A stretch of 64,000 nucleotides of DNA from Myxococcales bacterium (GTDB lineage: Bacteria > Lernaellota > Lernaellaia > Lernaellales > Lernaellaceae). The position numbers and the translations under genes are program-made. The notes beneath the pieces are model-generated. The model saw nothing but the letters and a program-made list of their open reading frames with translations. It was not told the DNA's origin and ran no database searches. Position 1 is the stretch's first letter. Each line of letters begins with the position of its first letter. Of this stretch, positions 5,537 to 30,985 are shown piece by piece. The stretch spans positions 1 through 64,000 of the forward strand of contig JAAYVF010000008.1 of NCBI GenBank assembly GCA_012517325.1, given 5' to 3'.

Positions 5537-6255
5537 CCGGGTTTCCTTTTCGTCCGGGTATGCCAATAAACCGCCGCCAGCTCCCAGGCGGTGCGCGGCG
5601 CCGTCCGCCACAACCGTGCGGCCTTGGACCGCCCGAAGCGACGGGGCGTTTTTTGCACCGCCACCTCGGCCACGCCGACGCCGCGGCGATGCGCTTCCAC
5701 GACCAGTTCCGTCATGGCCACCGGCGTGGCGGCCGTCGACCGCACGCTCGTCGCCAATTCACGCTTCACCAGCAAACAAGCGCCGAAATCGCCGTACGGC
5801 AGCGAAAACAGCCGCCGCACGAGCCGATGATAGAGCCGCGAAAAGAACCTCCGGTCGATCGCCTCGCCCGCGGCCACGCCGAGGATCAGCGAATTCGTCG
5901 TGCAGCCCGGCAGCAGATCAAACAACACCGCCGGCGCAATCTGCCCGTCGGCCGGCAGCAGAAAAACCCAATCGCCCCGCGCTTCGCGATAACAGGTTCG
6001 CTGCACCGCGGCGAAACCCCGGTTGCGCGGATGGGTGACGAAGCGAACGCCGGGCCGCGCCGCCAGTTCGCGCACCAGTTCGGCCGTGGGCGCCGCGCTG
6101 CCGTCGTCCACGATCAAAACCTCGCGAAAACCGGTCGTCGCCCGTTCCAGCACCGCCAGCGAATCGCGCACCAGTTCGGCGATCGTTTCGGGTTCGTTGT
6201 ACACCGGCAAGGCGATGGTCAGGCTCAAGCGCGTCGGTATGTCGATCGACGACAA
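5533..6255 (-). CDS. Family 2 glycosyltransferase (240 aa)
   Basis: A DPM1/WcaA-like GT-A fold is evident: LTIALPVYNEPETIAELV at the N-terminus, EVLIVDDGSAAPT, and WVFLLPADGQI in the place of the DXD metal site. It has no C-terminal membrane helices, so it is probably a soluble or peripheral enzyme that moves a sugar from a nucleotide donor to a lipid carrier or glycan. The TTG start at 6255 is supported by GGAG 8 nt upstream. It sits between two DegT aminotransferase genes and overlaps the downstream one by 4 bp, indicating one operon. Confidence 0.82.
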   Translation of the reverse strand: MSSIDIPTRLSLTIALPVYNEPETIAELVRDSLAVLERATTGFREVLIVDDGSAAPTAELVRELAARPGVRFVTHPRNRGFAAVQRTCYREARGDWVFLLPADGQIAPAVLFDLLPGCTTNSLILGVAAGEAIDRRFFSRLYHRLVRRLFSLPYGDFGACLLVKRELATSVRSTAATPVAMTELVVEAHRRGVGVAEVAVQKTPRRFGRSKAARLWRTAPRTAWELAAVYWHTRTKRKPG

Positions 6256-6326
6256 CGTCGGGCTCCGTCCAGTTGGAAATCGACTTCATTCTAGCCAAGC
6301 CGGCCGGCGATGAGAAGGGTCGGCGA

Positions 6327-7511
6327 TCAGTCGGCGCGGCCGCGCGCGATCGCCCGCAAAGCCGCCAGAACGGCGTCCTGCTCGCGCCGGGTCATTTGCG
6401 GATACAACGGCAGCAGGATCATCCGGTCGCTGGCCGTTTCGCTCGCCGCGAGCGCGGATCGGGCGCCGGGCGCCGGCGGGCCGCTCGTCCAGGCGTCCGC
6501 CGGATAAGCCGGCTCGCGATGGGCGCACATCACCCCGCGCCGCGCCGCGATGCCGCGGTCGGCCAGACATTGCAGCGCGATCGTCTGCTCGATCCCGTCC
6601 GGCAGGTAGACGCCGTAGCTCTGCCAATTGGTTCGCGCCCAGACCGGTTCGCTCACCGGCCGGAAGCCCGGCAGCGCCGCCAAGGCTAGCCGGTAGCGTT
6701 CCGCCAGGCGGCGGCGACGTTCGAGAATGCCCGGCAGACGGCGCAATTGCACGCGGCCGACGGCCGCCTGCAGATCGGTCAGTCGGCCGTTGTGCCCCGG
6801 CAGCAGATACTGCTCGAACCGCACTTCCCGCGCCTCGTGGCGTTCGCGGTCACTGATGCTCATGCCGTGGTGGCGCAGCAGGCGCAGCCGGCGGTCCAGG
6901 TCGGCGCGGCGCGTGGTGATCAGGCCGCCCTCGCCCGTGGTGATCACCTTGCGCGGATGCAGCGAAAAGCAGGCGACGTCGCCGCGCGGCCGGCCGATCC
7001 GTTCCCATCGCCCGCCGATTCTGATTTCGCTGCCGAGAGCACAGGCGGCGTCCTCGATCACCGCCAGGTTTCGGCGGCGGGCGATTTTCAGCAGGCGCGC
7101 CAGGTCGCACGGCATCCCCAATTGGTGCACGCACAAGACGGCGCGGGTCCGCGGGGTGATCGCCGCCTCGACGCGGTCCGGGTCGATGTTCAGGGTCGCC
7201 GGGTCGATGTCGACGAAAACCGGGCGGGCGCCGCGCTGGCGGATCGCGTTGGCGGCGGCGATGAAGGAATGGCTGACGGTGAGCACCTCGTCGCCGGCGC
7301 CGATTTCCAGCGCCTCGAGCGCCAGGCCCAGCGCCGTGGTGCAATTGGTCACCGCGCAGGCGTGCGGCGCCCCGACGAACGCGGCGAACTCGCGCTCGAA
7401 CGCCGCCACCTCGGGCCCCTGGGTCAGCCAGCCGCTCGCCAGCACCCGCCGCAAGGCCTGCAGCTCCGCGCCGCCGAGCCACGGTCTGGCCAGGGGAATC
7501 CGTTCAGTCAT
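6327..7511 (-). CDS. DegT/DnrJ/EryC1/StrS-family PLP aminotransferase (394 aa)
   Basis: Second sugar aminotransferase of the operon. It shows WLTQGPEVAAFE, VTNCTTALGLALEAL, the EDAACALGSEI block and the PLP lysine in FSLHPRKVITTGEGG. The HPRK rather than FYPAK context places it in a different subgroup from the first DegT protein, so the two probably act on different keto-sugars or one is a dehydratase. The ATG at 7511 has GGAG 6 nt upstream and overlaps the upstream epimerase stop by 8 bp. The C-terminal third has a slightly unusual ArgAla-rich stretch near SGPPAPGARSALAASETASD but keeps the terminal DRMILLPLYPQMT block. Confidence 0.87.
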   Translation of the reverse strand: MTERIPLARPWLGGAELQALRRVLASGWLTQGPEVAAFEREFAAFVGAPHACAVTNCTTALGLALEALEIGAGDEVLTVSHSFIAAANAIRQRGARPVFVDIDPATLNIDPDRVEAAITPRTRAVLCVHQLGMPCDLARLLKIARRRNLAVIEDAACALGSEIRIGGRWERIGRPRGDVACFSLHPRKVITTGEGGLITTRRADLDRRLRLLRHHGMSISDRERHEAREVRFEQYLLPGHNGRLTDLQAAVGRVQLRRLPGILERRRRLAERYRLALAALPGFRPVSEPVWARTNWQSYGVYLPDGIEQTIALQCLADRGIAARRGVMCAHREPAYPADAWTSGPPAPGARSALAASETASDRMILLPLYPQMTRREQDAVLAALRAIARGRAD

Positions 7512-14862: not shown

Positions 14863-16794
14863 ATGCTGACCGTTCACGCCATCTATCGGTGGAAATCAAG
14901 GTTCACCACCCGTTTGGAAGGATGGGACAATGTCCGCGTGCCGGCCGACAAGCCGCACTGGCGCGTCCTGGTGCTTTGGCTCGATGTATTGATTTTCAAT
15001 GCGCTTTTCTACCTGTTCGTGAAGGCGCTGATCTTCCACCCCTTGGACGTCTCCAGCCTTTGGCAGATTTTCCTCTGGGGCCTCCTCTTTACCGCCTGCC
15101 TCTATATCTTCAACCACCTGCACCGTTGGCGCGAACGATTGCGCTTTCAGGCGACGACGCTGCAATGGCTGTTTTTCATGGCCATCGCGTTTTTCGCCAC
15201 CTTTCTTTCCAATTTGGAGGTTACCCATAAGGGGTTCGATTTTTCCTGGTTGCGGCCGGAGATGATCAAGATCGTCTGGTGGCTGCGGATGTTCATTCCG
15301 CTGACTCCTTACTTTACCGCCTTTTTCGTCATTGCGATCACCTTGTTGATGTGGCGGACGACCACCAAACCGAAATCGCGTTTGATCTGGCTCATCCCCC
15401 TGATTTTTTCGTTGGTGATGATCTGGCTGTATCTATGGACGCTCGCGCCGATCGAAGGCATGTCGTTCCGCCCAGGCCAGAATCTGCCGCCCCGCAAAGG
15501 ATCCTACATTTTCTTCGCCGCCCTTTTCGGCGGCCCGCCCTTGCTGTTGTTTTTTCTGTTAGTGATCCGCTTTTATTCGATGGCGTTTCGCGTGGTGCCG
15601 ATCGTCTATTTCTTCGCGCAGATCCTGTTGAACTACATCGGGATTCTGCCGATGCAGTCGATTCACGACCTGATGCCGATCCTGGCGACCCGGGGTTACG
15701 ACACGCGGAGCATCGAGGGCGTTTCGATGTTCTATCCGCCGCCCGGCACCGAGGTGGATTCGACCTTCACCTTTTTGCGCAAGATGGTGGGCACGCCCGA
15801 ACGGCTGTACGTCAATTACGGGCCGACCTGCGGCCTGTACGCCTTCGACCGCGCGACGGGAAAAGCCCGGCAGCAGCTTCTTCCCGGCTTGATGCGCGAC
15901 CTTCAACTCGCGCCGGACGGCCGGCACCTCTGGGGCACCAATTGGTATACCGGCGATTTCCTCTCGCTCGACGCCGACGACCTGAAAACCCAGTGCAAAA
16001 AGGATATCTTCCCCTTCGGCCTGCTGACGCCGCTCCAGTTCATCCCCTACAATCAAGAAGGGTTGTTCGTCTCCAACGTCACGCCGCCGGTGATTTCCTA
16101 TCTCACGTACGAAAACATCGCCGACCCCTGCCAATTGAGCCTGCGCAAGACGATCGACTTCCAAAAAACCGGTTACACCCTGTTCAGCGACGGGGTTTAC
16201 GGCATGTACCTGGACGCGCCCAACCACCGGCTGTACGCGCTCGTCGGGATGCTGGGCGACCGCTTCCTGATGAGCCTGGTCGAACTGGATAGCTGGACCT
16301 TTCAGATCATCCGCGAAGTCCACCTGCGGGCCGGCATGCTGATCACGCCGGTCAAGGGACGGCACACCGTGCTGATTCCCAGCTACTATTCCGACGAACT
16401 GCACGAGGTTTCGCTCGACACCATGCGGATTTTGCGGACGATGCATACCGATCCGAACATTCTCGGCCTGGCGCACGACGTCCGCCGCGGGTTGTTTTAC
16501 GCGGTCAGCCGGGCGACCGGCATGCTGTCGGTCATCAGCGACGGCACGGGCAAGGTGATCCGCAAAGTGCCGGTGGGCAACAAGGCCGAGCCGGTCTGGT
16601 TGGATGAGGAGAACGATTTGCTGTTCATCGGCAGCCGCCTGGGGATCGTGCAGATCGATTTGGCGAAGTTCCTGCACGGCGAATCGCTGGCCGCGCGACC
16701 CCTGGCCGAGCCGGCGCCCGACGAGGAAACGGCCGCCGAACCGTCGCCCGAGGCGGCTCCGGCGAACGAGGCGTCGCCGGACCCCGGCACGTGA
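14863..16794 (+). CDS. Polytopic membrane protein with C-terminal YVTN-like beta-propeller (643 aa)
   Basis: No named family is recognised. About six hydrophobic segments occupy residues 30-270, then a soluble region has propeller-type repeats: GLYAFDRATGKAR, LAPDGRHLWGTNWYTGDFLSLDADDL, LDAPNHRLYALVG and VWLDEENDLLFIG. The C-terminal 35 residues are a low-complexity Pro/Glu/Ala tail. The organisation parallels the gene at 9718-11295, so the two are probably distant paralogues. The gene diverges from the GT39-like gene and precedes the PhoR-like kinase by 116 bp, but may be transcribed separately from it. Confidence 0.6.
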   Translation: MLTVHAIYRWKSRFTTRLEGWDNVRVPADKPHWRVLVLWLDVLIFNALFYLFVKALIFHPLDVSSLWQIFLWGLLFTACLYIFNHLHRWRERLRFQATTLQWLFFMAIAFFATFLSNLEVTHKGFDFSWLRPEMIKIVWWLRMFIPLTPYFTAFFVIAITLLMWRTTTKPKSRLIWLIPLIFSLVMIWLYLWTLAPIEGMSFRPGQNLPPRKGSYIFFAALFGGPPLLLFFLLVIRFYSMAFRVVPIVYFFAQILLNYIGILPMQSIHDLMPILATRGYDTRSIEGVSMFYPPPGTEVDSTFTFLRKMVGTPERLYVNYGPTCGLYAFDRATGKARQQLLPGLMRDLQLAPDGRHLWGTNWYTGDFLSLDADDLKTQCKKDIFPFGLLTPLQFIPYNQEGLFVSNVTPPVISYLTYENIADPCQLSLRKTIDFQKTGYTLFSDGVYGMYLDAPNHRLYALVGMLGDRFLMSLVELDSWTFQIIREVHLRAGMLITPVKGRHTVLIPSYYSDELHEVSLDTMRILRTMHTDPNILGLAHDVRRGLFYAVSRATGMLSVISDGTGKVIRKVPVGNKAEPVWLDEENDLLFIGSRLGIVQIDLAKFLHGESLAARPLAEPAPDEETAAEPSPEAAPANEASPDPGT

Positions 16795-16910
16795 ACCGCG
16801 AACGAGGAGCGAGCGGATTAACGCATTTCTCATCGAACGCAAACAAAAGGCAAACCGACGCCTATTAGAATTACCGCCTTTCACCGCAAGACGATGATCG
16901 GGAGGAGTCG

Positions 16911-18692
16911 GTGACAAGAAAAAAACTGTTCTGGAAATTGTACCCCGTCCAAATCGCCATTCTCCTGTTTAGTCTGGCGGCCCTGTTCGGGTACACCACC
17001 CTGATCCTGCGGAATTTCTATTTCGACCATACCGCCAACATCCTCGAAACCGACGCCCGCCTGTTGGCCGAGGAGATTAAAAACGCCGATCCGACGCGGA
17101 TGCCGCTCGAACTGAACGACATCTGCCGGCGCCTGGACCGGGAGACCGGCACGCGTTACACGCTCATCCGGCCGTCGGGCGAGGTGCTCGCCGACTCCGA
17201 ACAAACTCCGGCGGCGATGGACAACCATGCCGACCGGCCCGAGGTGCGCGAAGCCCTGGCCGGAAAAGTCGGCCGTTCGATCCGCTACAGCTTCACGCTG
17301 AAGAAGGACCTGGTTTACGTCGCCGTGCCGATCCGTCTGCAAAACCCGGGGGGACAACCCGTGATCGTGCGCGCATCCATGCCCCTGCCGGTTTTCAAAC
17401 AGGCGCTGAACAACCTCGATCTCCGCATCGCGCTGGGCGGTCTGGCGGTGGCGCTGCTGGCCGGCGGTTTGCTCTGGTGGACGGCGCGGCGCGTCACCCG
17501 GCCGCTCCAAGCGGTCGCCCGCGGCGCGGCGCGGCTGGCCGAAGGCGATTTCTCGACCCGCGTCCAGGCCGCCGATTACGAGGAATCGGCCGTCCTCGCC
17601 GACTCGTTGAATCGGATGGCCGGCCAGCTCGACCAATGGATCCGCACCGTGACGCGGCAGCAGCGCGAGCAGGAAGCCGTGCTGGCGAACATGAACGAAG
17701 CGGTCATGCTGATCGACGGCGAACGGCGGATCGTGCGCCTCAACCAGGCGGCCGGGCGCCTGCTGGGGGTCGATCCGCAACAGGCGGCGGGCCGTTTGAT
17801 CCTGGAGGTGGCGCGATACGCGAATCTGCAGAAATTCATCGGTGAATTGCTGGAAAAGGGCCAACGCTCCGAGGCCGACCTGTTGTTGCACGACGGCGGC
17901 GAGCGGTTCCTGCTGGCCTATGGAATTTTTCTGCCGCCGACCGCCGAACAGGACGGCGCGGTCGCCTTGATCGTGCTGCACGACGTCACGCGCCTGAAAA
18001 AGCTGGAAAACCTGCGGCGCGAGTTCGTCGCCAACGTTTCGCACGAACTCAAAACCCCCATCACTTCCATTAAAGGTTTCGTGGAAACGTTGCGGGACGG
18101 GGCGATCAACGACCCGGAAAACGCCAAAAACTTCCTCGCCATCGTGTCCAATCACGCCGAACGGCTCAATTCGATCATCGACGACCTGCTGTTCCTGTCG
18201 AAAATCGAGCAGGACGAGCAGGCCGCGACCGTCGCCGGCGAACCGGCGCGCCTGGCCGGAGTCGTCCAGTCGGCGCTCAATATCTGCGCGGCGCGGATCG
18301 CCGAAAAAAAGGCCGCGGTCGAGCTGACCGGCGACCTGGAACTGCAAGTGGTCGTCAACCAGAAGTTGCTTGAATTGGCGGTCGTCAACCTGCTGGACAA
18401 CGCGCTGAAATACGGCGAGGCCGGCAGCCGGGTGACGATCCGGCTCGAAGGCACCCCGACCGAAGCGCGACTCGTCGTGGCCGACAGCGGTTGCGGCATC
18501 GAAGCCGAACACCTGCCGCGGATCTTCGAGCGTTTTTACCGGGTGGACAAGGCGCGCAGCCGCAAACTGGGCGGCACCGGGTTGGGTCTGGCGATCGTCA
18601 AACACATCGTCAACGTGCATCGCGGGCAAATCACCGTGCAAAGCGAACCCGGCAAAGGCAGTGTTTTTACGATTCATTTGCCACGCGCCTGA
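16911..18692 (+). CDS. phoR: PhoR-like membrane sensor histidine kinase (593 aa)
   Basis: Sensor kinase of the phosphate-type two-component systems. Two membrane segments (about residues 10-30 and 175-195) bracket a periplasmic domain; HAMP follows (about 195-245), then PAS (255-350), then HisKA with the phospho-acceptor H378 in VSHELKTPITSIKGF. The ATPase has the N box LLDNALKYGE, DSGCGIE and GGTGLGLAI. The GTG at 16911 lies directly after a strong GGAGGAGTC. It sits 124 bp upstream of pstS, which supports phosphate sensing, and PhoR-type kinases talk to PstSCAB through PhoU. No phoB-like response regulator is present in the window, so the symbol is provisional. Confidence 0.78.
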   Translation: MTRKKLFWKLYPVQIAILLFSLAALFGYTTLILRNFYFDHTANILETDARLLAEEIKNADPTRMPLELNDICRRLDRETGTRYTLIRPSGEVLADSEQTPAAMDNHADRPEVREALAGKVGRSIRYSFTLKKDLVYVAVPIRLQNPGGQPVIVRASMPLPVFKQALNNLDLRIALGGLAVALLAGGLLWWTARRVTRPLQAVARGAARLAEGDFSTRVQAADYEESAVLADSLNRMAGQLDQWIRTVTRQQREQEAVLANMNEAVMLIDGERRIVRLNQAAGRLLGVDPQQAAGRLILEVARYANLQKFIGELLEKGQRSEADLLLHDGGERFLLAYGIFLPPTAEQDGAVALIVLHDVTRLKKLENLRREFVANVSHELKTPITSIKGFVETLRDGAINDPENAKNFLAIVSNHAERLNSIIDDLLFLSKIEQDEQAATVAGEPARLAGVVQSALNICAARIAEKKAAVELTGDLELQVVVNQKLLELAVVNLLDNALKYGEAGSRVTIRLEGTPTEARLVVADSGCGIEAEHLPRIFERFYRVDKARSRKLGGTGLGLAIVKHIVNVHRGQITVQSEPGKGSVFTIHLPRA

Positions 18693-18816
18693 TCGATTTT
18701 CATTCCTAACCGAAAATTAACAATCCGGTAGCGGTAATTTAGCACCCGCCTTTTATCTTCTTTCCGAAAAGTGAAACCGGAAGAGCGTCCCGCGACGCGA
18801 AAGGAGATAAAATCCG

Positions 18817-23284: not shown

Positions 23285-23309
23285 GGCGGCGAAAACCGCC
23301 TTATCTTTT
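23285..23309 (+). terminator. Probable rho-independent terminator of the pst operon
   Basis: A GGCGG/CCGCC stem with a CGAAAA loop is followed by TTATCTTTT, just after phoU. It overlaps the 3' end of the convergent tetR-type gene, so the tail lies within that gene's last codons. Confidence 0.5.
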
Positions 23310-23978
23310 CCGCTTGCCCGCGCGGCCGCGGGCGCCGGCGGTTTCCGCGGCGCGCGGGACGGCGGCCGGCGGTTGGGGTTCGTCCCCGCGCATACCGAAT
23401 TCCATGATGGACATCGCTTCCTCGCCCATCCGCTTCAGGTCGCTGCGACAATCGCTTTGGTACCATTCGCGCAGGATGACCTTGAACAATCCCATGATCG
23501 CCCCGGCCAGGAACCGCGCCCGGCGATCGGTCATTCCGGAATCGCCGCCCCGCGTGATCAGTTCCGCGGCGATGATCGCTTCCCAGTCCTCGTCCATCTT
23601 GTCGCCGCGCGCGATCAAGGTCGGCGATTTCTGGATGATGCGCTGTTGAATCAGGTGATCTTCCCGCGCCGCGTGGTATTGCTCGGCCATGGTCATGGTG
23701 GCGCGGCGGATCGCGTCCATCGCCGTTTCCTGACCGCGATTTTCGGCCAGCAACCGGCGAAAATATTCCAGGTAGATTTCTTGATGCGGAAAAACGACCA
23801 AATCCTTGGAAGGAAAATAACGGAAGAAGGAACGGCGCGAAACCTCGGCGGCCTCGGCGATCTCGTCGACCGTCGTTTCCTCGAATCCCTTTTCGATGAA
23901 CAGTTTCATCGACACCTGGATCAAGGAGTCGCGGACTTTGGCCTTTTTCCGTTCGCGCAGGGAGCTATGATTCAGCAT
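23301..23978 (-). CDS. TetR/AcrR-family transcriptional regulator (225 aa)
   Basis: The N-terminal helix-turn-helix is clear: RERKKAKVRDSLIQVSMKLFIEKGFEETTVDEIAEAAEVSRRSFFRYFPSKDLVV (roughly residues 8-62). The C-terminal part is a divergent ligand-binding helical domain. I prefer ATG 23978; an earlier ATG at 24101 with a good GGAG upstream is in frame, but it would place the operator-like palindrome (about 24000-24010) inside the coding region. It diverges from the SCP2/glycyl-radical enzyme and is the likely repressor of that operon. The C-terminal tail is Arg/Pro-rich low complexity. Confidence 0.85.
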   Translation of the reverse strand: MLNHSSLRERKKAKVRDSLIQVSMKLFIEKGFEETTVDEIAEAAEVSRRSFFRYFPSKDLVVFPHQEIYLEYFRRLLAENRGQETAMDAIRRATMTMAEQYHAAREDHLIQQRIIQKSPTLIARGDKMDEDWEAIIAAELITRGGDSGMTDRRARFLAGAIMGLFKVILREWYQSDCRSDLKRMGEEAMSIMEFGMRGDEPQPPAAVPRAAETAGARGRAGKRKR

Positions 23979-23996
23979 TTCCTGAGTATAATTCTC

Positions 23997-24029
23997 TAGA
24001 CACTGAGTGTAAATAGACACCGGTGAAAA
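23997..24029. promoter_or_regulatory. Tandem operator-like palindromes near the tetR-type gene
   Basis: TAGACACTGAGTGTAAA (23997-24013) holds the palindrome ACACT-G-AGTGT. It is immediately followed by TAGACACCGGTGAAAA (24014-24029), which holds the perfect palindrome CACCGGTG. A third related copy lies at 24214-24230. The sites lie 19-51 bp upstream of the preferred regulator start, where autorepression would act. Confidence 0.5.
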
Positions 24030-24203
24030 CGACAAATCTTGGGGATCATGAGCCGTGCCGGCCGGCGGCGCGACCTGGTGAATATCCGGCCGATTTTTCA
24101 TGAATCGCTGCTCCGTCCCTGTTTTCAGCCCTTGGCGACCCCGAACCCGAATGGCGGGACGCGGGTCGACAACGGCCAAGCCGTCTTGAACAAAATCGTA
24201 ATA

Positions 24204-24231
24204 TATAATGCATTAGGCACTCGGTGTCAAA
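24204..24231 (+). promoter_or_regulatory. TATAAT box and operator-like site of the glycyl-radical operon
   Basis: A perfect TATAAT (24204-24209) is followed by TAGGCACTCGGTGTCAA (24214-24230), which agrees at 13 of 17 positions with the site at 23997. A -35 at proper spacing is poor (TTGAAC at 24186 is only 12 bp away), consistent with a regulated promoter. A repressor bound here would cover the transcript start. Confidence 0.45.
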
Positions 24232-24250
24232 ATATACCGAGGGACAGAAT

Positions 24251-27200
24251 ATGGAATGGCCTTTCGTCTCCCGGTCCGCCGCGGCATCGCCACCGGGCGG
24301 ATTTTTGTTACACTACGGTTTGAAAGCGAGGTCCGTCATGCCCGCGCGAACCGGACGAAATTGGCTGGTGCCGCTGTTGCTGCATCTGTTCGCCGCCAAT
24401 TACGGGTGGCGGCCGCGCCTCCGCCGGTACCTCAAAAGCCGCGACGGGTGGATGGATTTCACCGTCGGCTTCCGCACGCTGGACGGGACGATCCGCGCCG
24501 GCTTGCGCTTCCGCGACGGCCGCGTCCAGGTGCTCGGCGACGCGCCGCCGGACGCGGATACCGAATTGTGCTTTCGCGACAAGTCGGTCATCCGAAAAAT
24601 GCTCCGGTTGCCGCCCAACGAGGTGATGAACCTGCTGTTGCGCAACGAGCTGTCGATTCGCGGCAACCTGGCGACGATGAGCAAGTTCAATTTTCTCCTC
24701 TCGGTTTTGCTGGAGAAAAAGCACCGCCGGATGGCGGCGCGACAGGCGGCCGCCCAGCCTGACGGCGACGACCGCCCGGCCGATCGCGAGGGTTCGGCCA
24801 AGCTGGCCGCGCGGCGCCGCGAACGCCTGCCGGGCAAACCGACGGACGCCGTGCGCCATCTCGACGATCCCTACCTGGCGGAATATTCCCTCGACGACTT
24901 CCCGCGCCTGCGAAAATTTCTCAACCTCCACTTCACGCAAAAACCGGAAATCTGCGCCGAACGCGCGGTTTTGCTGACGCAATGGTTCCGGGAAAACGGC
25001 TTTGAAACCGACGCGCAAGGCCGGCCGTGGGTTCCGGTGCTGCGACAGGCCGCCGCGTTCCGCTTTTTCATGGCCCACAAAACGCCGCGGCTGCGCGCCG
25101 ACGATCTGCTCGCCGGCACGACGACCGCCAAGGAAATCGGCGTGGTGCTTTATCCGGACACGCACGGCACGATGATCTGGGGCGAACTGCTGTCGGCGCC
25201 GTACCGGCCGTTGAATCCCTACGATATCAGCCAGGAAACCCGGCGCGTCCTGCACGAGGACGTTTTCCCTTATTGGGAAAAGCGCAACGTCCGCGAAATC
25301 GTCCGCCGCCGCTACCACGCGCCGCTCTGCCAGCAGATGGACGAGCGCTTCGCCGTCTTTTTCCTCTGGAAGACCGTCGCCGTCTCGCACACCATCCCCG
25401 ATTTTCCGCGGCTGCTGCGCCTGGGTACCGAGGGGATGATCGCCGAAATCGAAGCCGAGCCGGTCGTCGCCGGACCGGCGGGCGAGGAAAAATGCCACCT
25501 GCTGGAGGCGATGGCGACCGTGCTGGCCGGCGTCAACGATTACGCTGACAACCTGGCGCGCCAGGTGGCCGCGGAAGCGGCCGCGGAGCCTGACGGCCCC
25601 CGCCGGTCGGAGTTGCTCGCGCTGGCCGCCATCACCGCGCGCGTGCCGCGCCAACCGGCCCGCACCCTGCACGAGGCGCTGCAGGCGATCTGGACGATGT
25701 GGCTCGCGCTGCATCAGGAGAACACCAACGCCGGCCTTTCGTTGGGCCGGCTCGATCAATGGCTGCAACCGTTTTTCGCGGCCGATCTGAAAGCGATCGC
25801 CGATCCGGAGGCGCGGCGCGCCTACATCCGCCGGGCCATCGAGCTGGTCGGCTGTTTCTACCTGCGCTGCACCGATCACCTGCCCCTGGTGCCGGACATC
25901 GGCAATTTCCTCTTCGGCGGCAGTTCATCCGACCAGGCGATCACCCTGGGCGGCGTGACGCCCGCGGGCGCGAACGGCGTGAACGACATGACTTATGTCT
26001 TCCTGAAGGTCACGGAGCTGCTCAACATCCGCGACCCCAACGTAAACGCCCGTTTTCACCCGGGGATCAACTCCGACGATTACCTGCGGCGGTTGTGCGA
26101 GGTCAATTACCTGACGGCCGCGACGCCCTCGCTGCACAACGACCGCGCCGTCATGGCCTCCTTGGCGGAGTTCGACTATCCGCCCGAGCATTTGCGCGAC
26201 TGGTCGGCCACCGGCTGCGTCGAGCCGACGCTGGCGGGCCGGCACATGGGCCACACCAACTGCATGATGATGAACATGGTGGCGGCGCTGGAAATGGCGC
26301 TGCACAACGGCCGCCACCCGCTGATGAACTGGGATCTCGGACCGAAAACCGGCCCGGCGGACAACGCCACCTTCGCGACGTTCGATCGTTTCTTCGCCGC
26401 CTTCGCCGAGCAGTATCGTTTTCTCATCGATCAGGCCTGCGAATACAACAATTTGCTGGGCACGGTGCACGGCGAGGTCCGCCCGACGCCGCTTTTGTCG
26501 TCGTTGCTCGACGGCTGCCGCCAATCCGGCCGCGACGCCTCGCGCGGCGGCGCGCGCTACAACACCTCGGGCGCCGCCTGCATCGGCCTGGCGGACGTCA
26601 CCGATTCGTTGCTGGCGATCAAGACGCTGGTGTACGACGCCCGGAAGGTGTCGCTCGCCGAACTGCGACGCGCCGTGGACGACAACTTCGCCGGCGCGCC
26701 GGCCTGGCGGGCGCTGGCGTTGAAAAAGGCGCCGAAATTCGGCTCGGGCGATCCGGAGGCGCTGGCCATGGCCGATCGCGTCACCCGGCTGACGCACGAC
26801 GCCTTCGCCGCTCAGGCGAACTACCGCGGCGGCCGGTACACGGCAGGGTTCTGGTCGATGTCCAACCACGTCGCTTTCGGCTGCCTGAGCGGCGCCCTGC
26901 CCTCGGGCCGGCTCGCCGGCAAGCCCTTCACGCCGGGGCTGACGCCCGTGCCGAACGCTTCCGAAAACCTGCTCGATCCGATCCGCGACGTGGCGGCGCT
27001 GCGGCCGGAACAGATGAACAACAACATCGCCTTCAACGTCAAAATCGTGCCGGGCCCGCGCGACACGCACGCCCAGGCGGTGGATAACATCCGGCATTAC
27101 GTGAAGACCTATTTCGAACTCGGCGGCATGCAGATGCAGTTCAACGTCGTCACCTCGGCGATCCTGCGCGACGCGATGGCGCACCCGGAGGACTACCGGA

Positions 27201-27301
27201 ACCTGCTGGTCCGCATCTCCGGCTACAACGCCTATTTCGTGACGCTCAATCGCGACCTGCAACTCGAGCTGATCCAGCGCGCCGAGTACGGGATCTCTTG
27301 A
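24251..27301 (+). CDS. Glycyl-radical enzyme (CVE-type, dehydratase/lyase-like) with N-terminal SCP2-like domain (1016 aa)
   Basis: Large PFL-like enzyme. The glycyl-radical loop is RISGYNAYF with radical Gly about residue 991 (codon at 27221). The thiyl loop is TGCVEPTLAGRHMG with Cys about 656 followed by Val-Glu, as in glycerol dehydratase, CutC and HpdB rather than the CC of pyruvate formate-lyase, so an eliminase or decarboxylase chemistry is likely. Residues of about 30-160 are an extension (FTVGFRTLDG...DADTELCFRDKSVIRKML...) resembling an SCP2 lipid-carrier domain. ATG 24251 has GAGGG 7 nt upstream; ATG 24338 also has a good SD. GTG 24224 overlaps the operator and is unlikely. The activase gene overlaps its stop. 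The substrate is unknown; a fatty or sterol-like, perhaps CoA-linked, compound is suggested. Confidence 0.85.
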   Translation: MEWPFVSRSAAASPPGGFLLHYGLKARSVMPARTGRNWLVPLLLHLFAANYGWRPRLRRYLKSRDGWMDFTVGFRTLDGTIRAGLRFRDGRVQVLGDAPPDADTELCFRDKSVIRKMLRLPPNEVMNLLLRNELSIRGNLATMSKFNFLLSVLLEKKHRRMAARQAAAQPDGDDRPADREGSAKLAARRRERLPGKPTDAVRHLDDPYLAEYSLDDFPRLRKFLNLHFTQKPEICAERAVLLTQWFRENGFETDAQGRPWVPVLRQAAAFRFFMAHKTPRLRADDLLAGTTTAKEIGVVLYPDTHGTMIWGELLSAPYRPLNPYDISQETRRVLHEDVFPYWEKRNVREIVRRRYHAPLCQQMDERFAVFFLWKTVAVSHTIPDFPRLLRLGTEGMIAEIEAEPVVAGPAGEEKCHLLEAMATVLAGVNDYADNLARQVAAEAAAEPDGPRRSELLALAAITARVPRQPARTLHEALQAIWTMWLALHQENTNAGLSLGRLDQWLQPFFAADLKAIADPEARRAYIRRAIELVGCFYLRCTDHLPLVPDIGNFLFGGSSSDQAITLGGVTPAGANGVNDMTYVFLKVTELLNIRDPNVNARFHPGINSDDYLRRLCEVNYLTAATPSLHNDRAVMASLAEFDYPPEHLRDWSATGCVEPTLAGRHMGHTNCMMMNMVAALEMALHNGRHPLMNWDLGPKTGPADNATFATFDRFFAAFAEQYRFLIDQACEYNNLLGTVHGEVRPTPLLSSLLDGCRQSGRDASRGGARYNTSGAACIGLADVTDSLLAIKTLVYDARKVSLAELRRAVDDNFAGAPAWRALALKKAPKFGSGDPEALAMADRVTRLTHDAFAAQANYRGGRYTAGFWSMSNHVAFGCLSGALPSGRLAGKPFTPGLTPVPNASENLLDPIRDVAALRPEQMNNNIAFNVKIVPGPRDTHAQAVDNIRHYVKTYFELGGMQMQFNVVTSAILRDAMAHPEDYRNLLVRISGYNAYFVTLNRDLQLELIQRAEYGIS

Positions 27302-28209
27302 TGCCCGCGGACTTCGCCGCCGAACCGCTGATCCTCGACGTCAAGCACAACTCGCTGGACGACGGCCCGGGCATCCGCTCGACGGTGTTTTTCAAGGGCT
27401 GCCCGCTCGATTGCGCCTGGTGTCACAATCCGGAAAGCAAATCGCCGGAAGCCGAGCTGGCGGTGGATCCGGCCGCCTGCGTCAACTGCGGCGCCTGCGC
27501 GGCGGCCTGCCCGCACGGCGCGATCCGGCCGGGCGCCGTCGACCGCGACCGCTGCCGGCGCGATTTCCGCTGCGCGGCGGTCTGCCCCACTGAGGCGCTG
27601 CGGCGGCTGGGCCGCTACCGGCCCCCGGCGGAAATCCTCGCCGAGTTGAAGCGCTACCTCCCGTTCTTCCGCAATTCCGGCGGCGGCCTGACGCTGTCGG
27701 GCGGCGAACCGACGCTCTACCCGGACTACGCCGCCAAGCTGCTGCGCGGGGCGAAGCAACTGGGCATTCGGACGTTGCTTGAAACTGGCGGTTTATTTGA
27801 CTTCACCCGTTTCCAGGAAAACCTTTTGCCCTGGCTGGATGCGATCTATTTCGATTTGAAACTGATGGATGACGGCCAACACCGCGAATTCTGCGGCGCG
27901 CCCAACGGGAGAATCCTGGATAATTTCCGCCGCCTGGCGGTCGTCGCGCGCACCGGCTTCTTCCGGCTGCTGCCGCGCGTACCGCTGGTGCCCGGCCTCA
28001 CCGACACCGACGAAAACCTGGCGGCGATCGCCCGTTTTCTGGACGACTGCGGCGTCCGCCGGGTCGATCTGTTGCCCTACAATCCGACCTGGACGCGCAA
28101 AGCCGTGCTCATCGACCGGCCGACCCGCCTGGCGATCGAACGCTGGCAAACTCCGGACGAACTGGAGCGCTGCCGGCGGGCTTTCGCCGGCTTCGCCATC
28201 GAACGGTAG
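27301..28209 (+). CDS. Glycyl-radical enzyme activating enzyme, radical SAM (302 aa)
   Basis: Installs the glycyl radical on the preceding enzyme using SAM and [4Fe-4S]. The radical-SAM motif is GCPLDCAWC (CxxxCxxC) near residue 35, and LTLSGGEPTLYP is the GGE motif. An inserted ferredoxin-like region has a complete first cluster site (CVNCGACAAACP) and a second site in which Asp88 replaces the second Cys (C85, C91 and C95 remain). The ATG at 27301 shares its A with the GRE stop TGA, so the pair is tightly coupled. Length fits the GRE-AE family with the two-cluster insert. Confidence 0.92.
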   Translation: MPADFAAEPLILDVKHNSLDDGPGIRSTVFFKGCPLDCAWCHNPESKSPEAELAVDPAACVNCGACAAACPHGAIRPGAVDRDRCRRDFRCAAVCPTEALRRLGRYRPPAEILAELKRYLPFFRNSGGGLTLSGGEPTLYPDYAAKLLRGAKQLGIRTLLETGGLFDFTRFQENLLPWLDAIYFDLKLMDDGQHREFCGAPNGRILDNFRRLAVVARTGFFRLLPRVPLVPGLTDTDENLAAIARFLDDCGVRRVDLLPYNPTWTRKAVLIDRPTRLAIERWQTPDELERCRRAFAGFAIER

Positions 28210-28369: not shown

Positions 28370-30985
28370 ATGAGCCAGGATCTCCGCTGGGTGGTGATCA
28401 AGTTCGGCGGCACCAGCGTTTCCACGGTCGAGAATTGGCGGACCATCGCCGGCATCGTTCAGTCACGGTTGGCGGCGGGGCCGCGGGTGTTGGTGGTCTG
28501 CTCCGCCCTCGCCGGCGTCTCCAACAGCCTGGAAAAATTGCTCGAGGAAGCGGCCGGCGGCGATTCGTCCGGGATTTTCGACGCTTTGCGCGACAAGCAC
28601 CTGGCGCTGGCCCGCGAGTTGGGGTTGGACGGCGAGACGCTGCTGCAGAATTCGTTTCTGGAGTTGTCCCGCCTGGTGCAGGGAGCCGCTCTGGTGGAGG
28701 AAGTCAGCCCGCGGCTGCACGCCCGGGTGATGGCTTACGGCGAGTTGATGGCCACCCGGCTCGGCGCCGCCTACCTCAACCTGCAGGGCCTGGCCACCAC
28801 CTGGCACGACGCCCGCCAATCCCTGGTCGCCGAAACCAAGGAACACCAGGGCATCCGGCAGCACTTCCTTTCCGCCACCTGTTGTCACACCGACGATCCG
28901 CTGCTGCGCGAGCAATTCGCCGCCTACGGCACGCCGGTCGTGCTGACGCAAGGGTTCATCGCCCGGGACGCCGGCGGCGAGACCGTCCTGCTGGGCCGCG
29001 GCGGATCCGACACTTCGGCCGCCTATTTCGCCGCCAAGCTGGGCGCCGAGCGCTGCGAAATCTGGACCGACGTCCACGGCATCTTCACCGCCAATCCGCG
29101 CGAGGTGCCGACCGCGCGCCTGCTCAAACGACTCGATTACGAGGAAGCGCAGGAGATCACCTCGATGGGCGCGAAGGTGCTGCACCCGCGCTGCCTGCCG
29201 CCCGTCCGCGAGGCCAACATTCCGCTGCACATCTACTGCACCTCGCAGCCGTCGGTCGAGGGCACGGTCATCACGTCCGACGTCGCGATGCCCAGCGCGC
29301 AGGTCAAGGGGATTTCCTCCAAGTACCAGATCACGCTGATTTCGATGGAATCGCTGGGGATGTGGCGGCAGGTGGGTTTTCTGGCCGATGTGTTCGCGGT
29401 CTTCAAGCGGCACGGCATTTCGGTCGACCTGGTGTCCACGTCGGAAACCAACGTCACCGTGTCGCTGGACAACGTGGCCAACGCGCTCCACCCCGACGCC
29501 CTGCAGGCGCTGGTCCGCGACCTCGAGGTTTTCTGCGCGGTGCGCAAGATCGGCCCCTGCGCGTCGGTCAGCCTGATCGGCCGCCGGATCCGCACGATCC
29601 TCAACCAGCTCGGCCCGATTTTCGAGGCGCTGGGCGAGGCGCGCATCCACCTCGTCAGCCAGGCGGCCAACGACCTGAACCTGACCTTCGTGGTCGACGA
29701 AAATCAGACGCAACGACTGGTTGACGTGCTGCACCAGCAGCTCTTCGAGCACTCGCGCAACGAGAGCCTCTACGGACCGTCGTGGAACGACCTCTTCGAG
29801 GAAGACACGCAGCGCAAAGCGCCGGCGCCCAAACCCTGGTGGCGCGAGCGGCGCGACGAATTGCTGGCCCAGGCGGCGGCGGAATCGCCGCTTTACGTCT
29901 ACGACGAGGAAACCCTGGCGGCGGCCGTCGAGCAGTTGCAGCGCCTGACCGCCGTGGCGCGGATTTTCTACTCGATCAAGGCCAACCCGTTTCCGCCGAT
30001 TCTGCGCTTCTTTCACCAGGCCGGCCTGGGCTTCGAGTGCGTTTCGCCGGGCGAGGTCGAATTGCTGCTCGACCTGTTTCCCGAACTGGACCGCCGGCGC
30101 ATCCTGTTCACCCCCAACTTCGCGCCGCGCCGCGAATACGAAACCGCGCTGCAGCAAGGGGTGCTGGTCACCCTCGACAATCTGTTCCCCTTGCAGCAAT
30201 GGCCGGAGGTGTTTCGCGGCCGCGAAATTTTCGTGCGCCTCGATCCGGGCATCGGCCGCGGCCATCACCACCACGTCAAGACGGCGGGCAGCCATTCCAA
30301 ATTCGGCATCATCCCCGAACAGGTCGACGCCCTGTTGGCCCTGATCAAAAAACTGGGCGTGCGGATCACCGGACTGCATGCCCACACCGGCAGCGGCATT
30401 CTGACGCCCGACAACTGGCGCGAAACCGCGTCCTTCCTGGCGGCGATCGCCGAGCGCATCCCGACCGTCCGCACCCTCGACGTGGGCGGCGGCCTGGGCG
30501 TCGTCGAAAAGCCGGGGCAACTGGCGCTCGACCTGCAAAAGGTCAACGCCAACCTCGCGCAGGTGAAGGCCGCGTATCCGCAGATCGAAATCTGGCTCGA
30601 ACCTGGGCGGTACCTGGTGGCGCATTCCGGCGTGCTGCTGGCCCGCACCACGCAAACCAAGCAGAAAAACGGCGTCCATTACATCGGTATCGAAACCGGC
30701 ATGAATTCGCTGATCCGGCCGGCGCTTTACGGGGCCTATCACGAGATCGTCAACCTGACGGCGCTGGGCAAGACCAAGCGCGTCAAGGCCAATATCGTCG
30801 GGCCGATCTGCGAATCGGGCGACGTGCTGGGTCACGAGCGCAGCATTCACGCCGCCAAGGAAGGCGACGTTCTGCTGATCGCCACCGTCGGCGCCTACGG
30901 CCATTCGATGAGCTCGCACTACAATCTGCGGGCGCCGGCGCGGGAAATCCTGCTGGCGAAACGCGACCTCGCCAAAGCCAGATAA
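28370..30985 (+). CDS. Bifunctional aspartate kinase / diaminopimelate decarboxylase (871 aa)
   Basis: One chain carries the first and last enzymes of lysine synthesis. The N-terminal half is an aspartate kinase: IKFGGTSVSTVENW at residues 9-22, LGRGGSDTSAAYFAAKL, then paired ACT regions (ISMESLGMWRQVGFLADVF; ASVSLIGRRIRTIL). The C-terminal half, from about residue 500, is a LysA-type PLP enzyme: FYSIKANPFPP with PLP lysine K537, LHAHTGSGIL, LDVGGGLGV and GPICESGDVLG. Such fusions are known in Xanthomonadaceae and scattered other bacteria. SD AAGGAACGGG precedes the ATG. It stands alone with its own promoter between two unrelated operons. Confidence 0.92.
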   Translation: MSQDLRWVVIKFGGTSVSTVENWRTIAGIVQSRLAAGPRVLVVCSALAGVSNSLEKLLEEAAGGDSSGIFDALRDKHLALARELGLDGETLLQNSFLELSRLVQGAALVEEVSPRLHARVMAYGELMATRLGAAYLNLQGLATTWHDARQSLVAETKEHQGIRQHFLSATCCHTDDPLLREQFAAYGTPVVLTQGFIARDAGGETVLLGRGGSDTSAAYFAAKLGAERCEIWTDVHGIFTANPREVPTARLLKRLDYEEAQEITSMGAKVLHPRCLPPVREANIPLHIYCTSQPSVEGTVITSDVAMPSAQVKGISSKYQITLISMESLGMWRQVGFLADVFAVFKRHGISVDLVSTSETNVTVSLDNVANALHPDALQALVRDLEVFCAVRKIGPCASVSLIGRRIRTILNQLGPIFEALGEARIHLVSQAANDLNLTFVVDENQTQRLVDVLHQQLFEHSRNESLYGPSWNDLFEEDTQRKAPAPKPWWRERRDELLAQAAAESPLYVYDEETLAAAVEQLQRLTAVARIFYSIKANPFPPILRFFHQAGLGFECVSPGEVELLLDLFPELDRRRILFTPNFAPRREYETALQQGVLVTLDNLFPLQQWPEVFRGREIFVRLDPGIGRGHHHHVKTAGSHSKFGIIPEQVDALLALIKKLGVRITGLHAHTGSGILTPDNWRETASFLAAIAERIPTVRTLDVGGGLGVVEKPGQLALDLQKVNANLAQVKAAYPQIEIWLEPGRYLVAHSGVLLARTTQTKQKNGVHYIGIETGMNSLIRPALYGAYHEIVNLTALGKTKRVKANIVGPICESGDVLGHERSIHAAKEGDVLLIATVGAYGHSMSSHYNLRAPAREILLAKRDLAKAR

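Follow-up and report, generated by a model that had tools for sequence, protein, structure and literature searches.

Few anaerobic catalysts are as widespread as the glycyl radical enzymes (GREs), whose clades of known function mostly act on small polar molecules. The glutamate of the CXE motif is a hallmark of the GRE eliminases, whose products are aldehydes in nearly every case (PMC7077986). The eliminases include glycerol dehydratase (GDH; 1r8w), propanediol dehydratase (PDH; 5i2g and 9rco), CutC and HypD. Other GREs have accessory subunits: the beta and gamma partners of BSS and MASS are HiPIP-like Fe–S proteins and the partner of HPAD is a small surface subunit (PMC12358834). A long form of CutC (9f3w) of about 1100 amino acids is extended at its N-terminus by a degenerate copy of a GRE. 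SCP2 (sterol carrier protein 2)-like domains are joined to an enzyme in the alkylsulfatases SdsA1, Pisa1 and SdsAP, which act on alkyl-chain substrates (alkyl sulfates). These are metal-dependent hydrolases with a C-terminal SCP2 domain and without radical chemistry, while UbiJ and other bacterial SCP2 proteins are not fused to GREs. We found no report of a GRE carrying an SCP2 or sterol-carrier domain in the open-access literature searched. Here, we describe such a fusion in a 64,000-nucleotide stretch of a Myxococcales bacterium genome (assembly GCA_012517325.1, contig JAAYVF010000008.1, positions 1–64,000), referred to below as the window.

The fusion protein shares the barrel fold, the CXE motif, the glycyl loop and the paired activase with the GRE eliminases. 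It differs from them in its N-terminal SCP2 domain and in its substrate-anchoring residues, which are replaced by the near-invariant Asn502, Ser569, Asp570, His677, Thr678, Trp877 and Met879. On sequence grounds the locus appears to belong to an uncharacterised GRE subfamily that is defined by an SCP2-type partner, which is fused here and a separate subunit in basal relatives. The features of the locus are as follows, with coordinates given as positions in the window and residue numbers following a 1025-residue open reading frame (ORF) rather than the 987-residue protein.

23301–23978, minus strand: divergent TetR-family regulator (PF00440, E 2.3e-15; PF17754, E 2.5e-8)
24220–24241: candidate operator between TetR and GRE, an imperfect palindrome CTCGGTGT-N6-ATACCGAG in which 7/8 arm bases pair
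24338–27301, plus strand: SCP2-GRE fusion protein, 987 amino acids
24365–24754, plus strand: SCP2 domain (Pfam, PDB profile, AlphaFold2 and Foldseek)
24755–24898, plus strand: charged variable linker (low conservation; low pLDDT near model residues 140–150)
24932–26881, plus strand: PFL-like GRE barrel domain (PF02901, residues 237–886)
26216–26224, plus strand: thiyl Cys665 and Glu667 of the CXE motif (kept in 84/84 sequences)
26927–27241, plus strand: glycyl radical domain (PF01228), with the Gly1000 codon at 27221–27223
27301–28209, plus strand: GRE activase, 302 amino acids, radical SAM with ferredoxin-type 4Fe-4S motifs (TIGR02494 and Fer4 matches)

The longer ORF spans 24224–27301 on the plus strand and its C-terminal 800 residues constitute the GRE, with matches to PF02901 (E 1.1e-162) and PF01228 (E 1.4e-22) that are both above cut-off. 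Because the first 38 codons are not conserved, we favour the ATG at 24338 as the likely start, and a GAGG lies just 5' of it. The thiyl loop reads ATGCVEP (Cys665 and Glu667) and the radical loop RISGYNAYF (Gly1000), so that both loops are intact, as the initial annotation had stated. It had also described an activase gene overlapping the GRE stop codon and a divergent TetR gene, and both are present: the activase ATG at 27301 shares one base with the stop (TTGATG), and its product scores 243.9 bits against TIGR02494 (cut-off 174.35). The barrel, the Gly_radical domain, the thiyl cysteine and the dedicated activase identify the protein, as far as sequence can, as a member of the GRE superfamily, and the glycyl radical itself is predicted.

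The N-terminal extension of about 130 residues had been likened to SCP2 in the initial annotation. For the window sequence alone the match to Pfam SCP2 (PF02036) is weak, with E 0.016–0.039 and 16.0 bits, below the gathering cut-off of 21.3. The identification becomes firm with family profiles and structure prediction. When 64 homologous extensions are compared with Pfam at E ≤ 1, SCP2 is matched by 35 of them (best E 3.9e-5), and each other listed family by one member. A profile of the extensions against all PDB chains gives only three matches, all of them SCP2 chains (E about 0.05). AlphaFold2 run on the alignment of the extension family yields a model with pLDDT 87, and the top 46 Foldseek matches of this model in the PDB are all SCP2 folds (best E 1e-5), including UbiJ-SCP2, the SCP2 domains of the alkylsulfatases Pisa1 and SdsA1, human SCP2 and AF1534; the closest are UbiJ and other bacterial SCP2 proteins. 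The SCP2 fold of the extension is thus established, and lipid binding by it is predicted. Neither profiles nor fold comparisons relate the extension to any known GRE insert, and a likeness to the extension of long-form CutC was rejected, the latter being a GRE copy. Foldseek ranks 47–49 are weak fold matches to cyclopropane fatty acid synthases, and DUF7884 gives single weak Pfam matches both for the fused domain and for separate SCP2 genes; these could hint at the handling of membrane phospholipid chains.

The full-length AlphaFold2 model of the fusion has a pLDDT of 90.8 and a pTM of 0.93. In a fold search GDH (1r8w) is the closest structure, with a TM-score of 0.94 normalised by target, and the other eliminases are nearest too (0.91–0.94). 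Cys665 and Glu667 align with Cys433 and Glu435 of GDH, with Cys434 and Glu436 of HypD and with their counterparts in CutC. The radical Gly1000 is kept in 83/83 sequences that reach this position. The window protein has GCVEP, and every SCP2-associated GRE listed has CVE or CIE. Its CXE glutamate would place the enzyme with the GRE eliminases, and the elimination reaction is predicted.

The initial annotation named glycerol dehydratase, CutC and HpdB as CVE-type enzymes. This list mixes eliminases with one decarboxylase, and the motif alone therefore leaves room for decarboxylation. A decarboxylase of a hydrophobic acid, similar to the arylacetate decarboxylases, would share the CVE motif that is also found in those enzymes. 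Nevertheless, the HPAD and IAD models score 201.8 and 241.6 bits compared with 324–373 bits for the CutC, HypD, PflD, HpsG and HpfG models, and the arylacetate decarboxylase 7e7l ranks far below the dehydratases in the fold search. We consider this function very unlikely.

The substrate pocket is close to constant within the main fused clade and, as judged from the alignment, unlike that of the dehydratases tested. Asn502, Ser569, Gln571, His677, Thr678, Trp877, Met879 and His882 do not vary among the 84 fused sequences and Asp570 is present in 82/84. His164 of GDH is retained as His389, while Asp278, Asp339 and Tyr450 of HypD are replaced by Ala, Ser and Met. The divergent fused proteins at loci L187, L190 and L220 differ at some of the otherwise invariant pocket residues. 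In the one at L190 (708–3698, minus strand), His389 is replaced by Gln and many pocket residues are changed, and this GRE possibly acts on a different substrate.

The window protein shows at most about 30% identity to characterised reference GREs. This is far below the 62% similarity-network threshold that groups IslA-like GREs (PMC6386719). None of the curated equivalog cut-offs for CutC, HypD, PflD, HpsG, HPAD, IAD and PFL is reached, the best being CutC with 373 bits against 1050. Two trees were calculated as quick searches with SH-aLRT as the only support, using CutC, HypD, GDH, PDH, PflD, 9rco, 8id1 and 2f3o as references; IslA, HpsG, HPAD and X-succinate synthase were compared by profile or fold alone. 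In the maximum-likelihood tree under LG+G4, 67 fused GREs lie on one branch (SH-aLRT 100) outside every reference GRE. Under the C20 mixture model 30 fused GREs and seven GREs with a separate SCP2 gene form one clade (SH-aLRT 100), within which the fused clade is nested (100), and the SCP2-associated state requires one change. Because the fused forms are nested within a single SCP2-associated clade, the SCP2 partner would, on the present tree, have been recruited once and then fused once. The proposal of a new GRE branch therefore stands, with the protein outside each characterised clade sampled.

A fumarate-adding, hydrocarbon-activating X-succinate synthase would suit some of the hosts, which include the alkane- and long-chain-degrading sulfate reducers Desulfatibacillum and Desulfosudis. 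The Archaeoglobus fulgidus PflD, which we take to be PDB entry 2f3o, groups near the SCP2-GRE clade in the LG+G4 tree. It is a proposed alkylsuccinate synthase (PMC5992423). The sister relation seen with the simple model is not recovered under the mixture model and was not used. Fumarate is bound by an arginine at position Cys+15 in BSS (Cys493/Arg508) and MASS (Cys477/Arg492) (PMC12358834). The equivalent residue is Cys680 in the window protein and Ser, Ala or Cys in its relatives, never Arg, and no genes for beta or gamma subunits were noticed in the neighbourhoods viewed. This makes an X-succinate synthase extremely improbable.

In the closest unfused relatives, as identified by profile searches, this SCP2 protein has its own gene beside the GRE, usually between the GRE and the activase. 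In the two nearest (genomes G002 and G045) a gene of 148–153 amino acids lies directly between them. A hidden Markov model of the fused domain that was built without both genes recovers them among 1,708 ORFs with E 1.4e-12 and 8.8e-10, the next unfused ORF having E 0.19. A joint profile that included both genes, so that the former search is the independent test, was then compared with 386 diverse genomes. Five more stand-alone genes were found, all near a GRE: directly 3' of it in G172, G175 and G382 and separated by one gene in G302 and G434. The activase is downstream in four of these five loci (in G175 after further ORFs), and the contig of G382 ends there. A second G382 contig contains one more match, which is of uncertain status. 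The seven separate subunits match the fused domain in a profile–profile comparison with 99.1% probability over 119 columns; three of them match Pfam SCP2 weakly (best E 0.0051). At L218 (6143–7468, plus strand) and L219 (5511–6821, minus strand) a protein of about 440 amino acids with a signal-peptide-like N-terminus is encoded between the GRE and the separate SCP2, and in both genomes a GntR-like gene is found 5' of the GRE.

A small partner gene beside the GRE, as at loci L193–L219, is reminiscent of the GREs with accessory subunits, although the partner here is of the SCP2 type. The accessory subunits of HPAD, BSS and MASS are not SCP2-like lipid carriers (PMC12358834), and by comparison the SCP2 domain could be a structural, membrane-docking or activase-recruiting module of a GRE with a small and soluble substrate. 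Its attachment through a variable charged linker and its faster evolution (mean identity to the window protein of 38%, against 64% for the barrel) fit such a peripheral role. On the other hand, the domain was gained once, long retained and fused across seven phyla, SCP2 folds bind lipid in most studied cases, and the near-invariant pocket residues fit no small-substrate GRE tested. We regard a purely auxiliary role as rather unlikely.

The fused architecture is widespread. Full versions are found in the relatives G002, G003 and G001 and in the distant G026, with identities of 70, 61, 58 and 49%, respectively. Among 84,980 species genomes scanned, at least 80 loci were recovered, nearly all aligned over residues ∼40–1024. 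All 83 aligned homologues (84 sequences with the window) are fused, with identities of 24–57% in the N-terminal domain, a conservation that goes beyond chance. Their hosts span at least seven phyla (Desulfobacterota/Thermodesulfobacteriota, Myxococcota, Spirochaetota, Actinomycetota, Chloroflexota, Pseudomonadota and Bacillota), as read from the titles of records that are nearly all metagenome bins, so that single assignments may be wrong. In 12 host genomes 20/20 strong matches to the domain sit in frames of about 990–1050 amino acids, with up to four per genome. A Desulfosudis assembly (G160) has four SCP2-GREs, and its locus L185 (7360–14898, minus strand) contains a tandem of TetR, SCP2-GRE, activase and a second SCP2-GRE; by eye, nearby ORFs resemble a wax ester synthase (16421–18775) and old yellow enzyme (5538–6797). 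In a Mogibacterium-related genome (L158, G079:C126, 3–2113 and 6435–10318) HypD and an SCP2-GRE, each with an activase, lie within about 10 kb.

The genome of the window encodes six GREs, just one of them with an SCP2 domain, and no second copy of the SCP2-like extension was found elsewhere in it. One of the other frames (L006, G000:C94, 607–3981, plus strand) is a 1124-residue ORF in which an N-terminal GRE activase without ferredoxin insert is fused to a CVE-type GRE; long frames of a similar kind are present in G003:C78 and G005:C150, from two further genomes of the class. Another GRE (L004, G000:C62, 922–3645, plus strand) has the thiyl loop GCTDL, with the CXE Glu replaced by Asp and Val by Thr, and is followed directly by an activase.

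Within 2.5 kb of the GRE, an activase is present in 50 of 58 well-flanked loci and a TetR gene in 34, of which 33 are upstream and co-oriented. The initial annotation had placed the fusion under the divergent repressor and raised a constant co-occurrence of TetR and activase. The latter is mostly constant, the TetR gene less so, and its divergent orientation describes the window and is not a family trait. The overall interpretation thus holds for the SCP2 identity and the new GRE branch, and for the regulator only locally. The divergent regulator of the window is MftR-like with a TetR_C_14 domain, and this is a local arrangement; the one upstream co-oriented TetR that was scanned has TetR_C_33. 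Against TIGR03968 (MftR, the mycofactocin TetR) the window protein scores 106.7 bits with a cut-off of 224.9, and it is not an MftR by this measure. An alternative upstream start at 24101 is possible. The palindrome at 24220–24241 is the sole one of such quality within 23961–24345 and is a candidate operator. Downstream, an 871-residue ORF (28370–30985, plus strand) looks by eye like a fused aspartate kinase and diaminopimelate decarboxylase.

Enrichment of neighbours was expressed as genes per 100 kb within 3 kb of the GRE compared with the farther flanks. Activase and TetR are enriched, as are an epimerase (3beta-HSD-like dehydrogenase; 5.3 versus 0.4–0.5), SDR (5.1 versus 0.8–1.0) and aldehyde ferredoxin oxidoreductase (AOR; 1.9 versus 0–0.5). 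In 25 loci the GRE has an epimerase or SDR close by; these loci fall on several distinct branches and show several gene orders, and some encode an epimerase–SDR fusion. AOR is near it in seven loci, and two Bacillota genomes have an activase–GRE–AOR–small protein–ferredoxin operon.

The AOR and SDR partners would suit an anaerobic ether-lipid or sphingoid-base lyase, in which elimination on the glycerol head of a 1-O-alkylglycerol or on the 2-amino-1-ol head of long-chain bases gives a long-chain carbonyl. An MlaE permease and a fatty acid CoA ligase near some loci also fit, as does the wax-ester-synthase-like ORF at L185. Glycerol kinase and acyl-CoA ligase, however, are not enriched within 3 kb of the GRE, and links to glycerol metabolism and to acyl-CoA ligation were dropped. 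A true glycerol kinase lies about 5 kb away in one syntenic group, and the FGGY kinases of G001 and G003, convergent with the GRE, miss the glycerol kinase cut-off. A sphingolipid link via KdsR- and OleD-like neighbours was also abandoned, their scores being far under the cut-offs. As a specific form of the explanation given below, such a lyase is distinctly unlikely.

On balance, we lean towards an eliminase-type GRE to which the SCP2 part feeds long-chain substrates, yielding an aldehyde or ketone for neighbouring dehydrogenases or AOR. The intact loops and the adjacent activase suggest that the activase would install the radical on Gly1000, which by homology to other GREs would generate a thiyl radical on Cys665. 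From a membrane or fatty substrate, the SCP2 domain would take up the long chain and pass the polar head to the barrel. The thiyl radical would then abstract a hydrogen beside a hydroxyl group, with Glu667 deprotonating that hydroxyl. As happens in GDH or CutC, the resulting ketyl radical would expel the neighbouring group (water, amine or other) and become a long-chain aldehyde or ketone. This carbonyl could be reduced or oxidised by the SDR or epimerase-type dehydrogenases or by AOR. A carbonyl product is expected because nearly all known GRE eliminases form aldehydes by means of the CXE glutamate (PMC7077986).

This proposal builds on what has been demonstrated: the identity of the domains, the catalytic residues, one origin for the association with SCP2, and genetic coupling. 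The step from SCP2 to a long-chain or lipid substrate, which the initial annotation had also taken in suggesting a hydrophobic substrate, argues by analogy and is its weakest link. The step is strengthened because the SCP2 partner was recruited and fused once and because the alkylsulfatases set a precedent for an SCP2–enzyme pair. Several points weigh against the proposal. SCP2 folds can have other roles, and CVE is also carried by some GRE decarboxylases. The residues His281, Ser282, Tyr339 and Asp447 that anchor the diol in GDH are replaced by Ala, Gly, Asp and Asn, so that nothing points to a plain diol as substrate. Only a minority of loci have AOR, and the same is true of epimerase and of SDR; none of the three adjoins the GRE in the window, and the missing enrichment of acyl-CoA ligase and glycerol kinase counts here as well.

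More tentatively, and at somewhat less than an even chance, SCP2-GREs may perform oxygen-independent radical chemistry directly on membrane-derived or long-chain lipids, for example breakage of ether or amino-alcohol head groups, with SCP2 as a dedicated delivery subunit. We know of no GRE for this class of reaction. Because the subunit also exists as a separate gene, what the SCP2 part does can be tested directly. The clade occurs in at least seven phyla, some sulfate-reducer assemblies have as many as four copies per genome, and on the present tree the lipid-carrier partner was acquired once and then fused. Together these observations point to an anaerobic transformation of lipids, so far unrecognised, that may take place in sediments, digesters and the gut.

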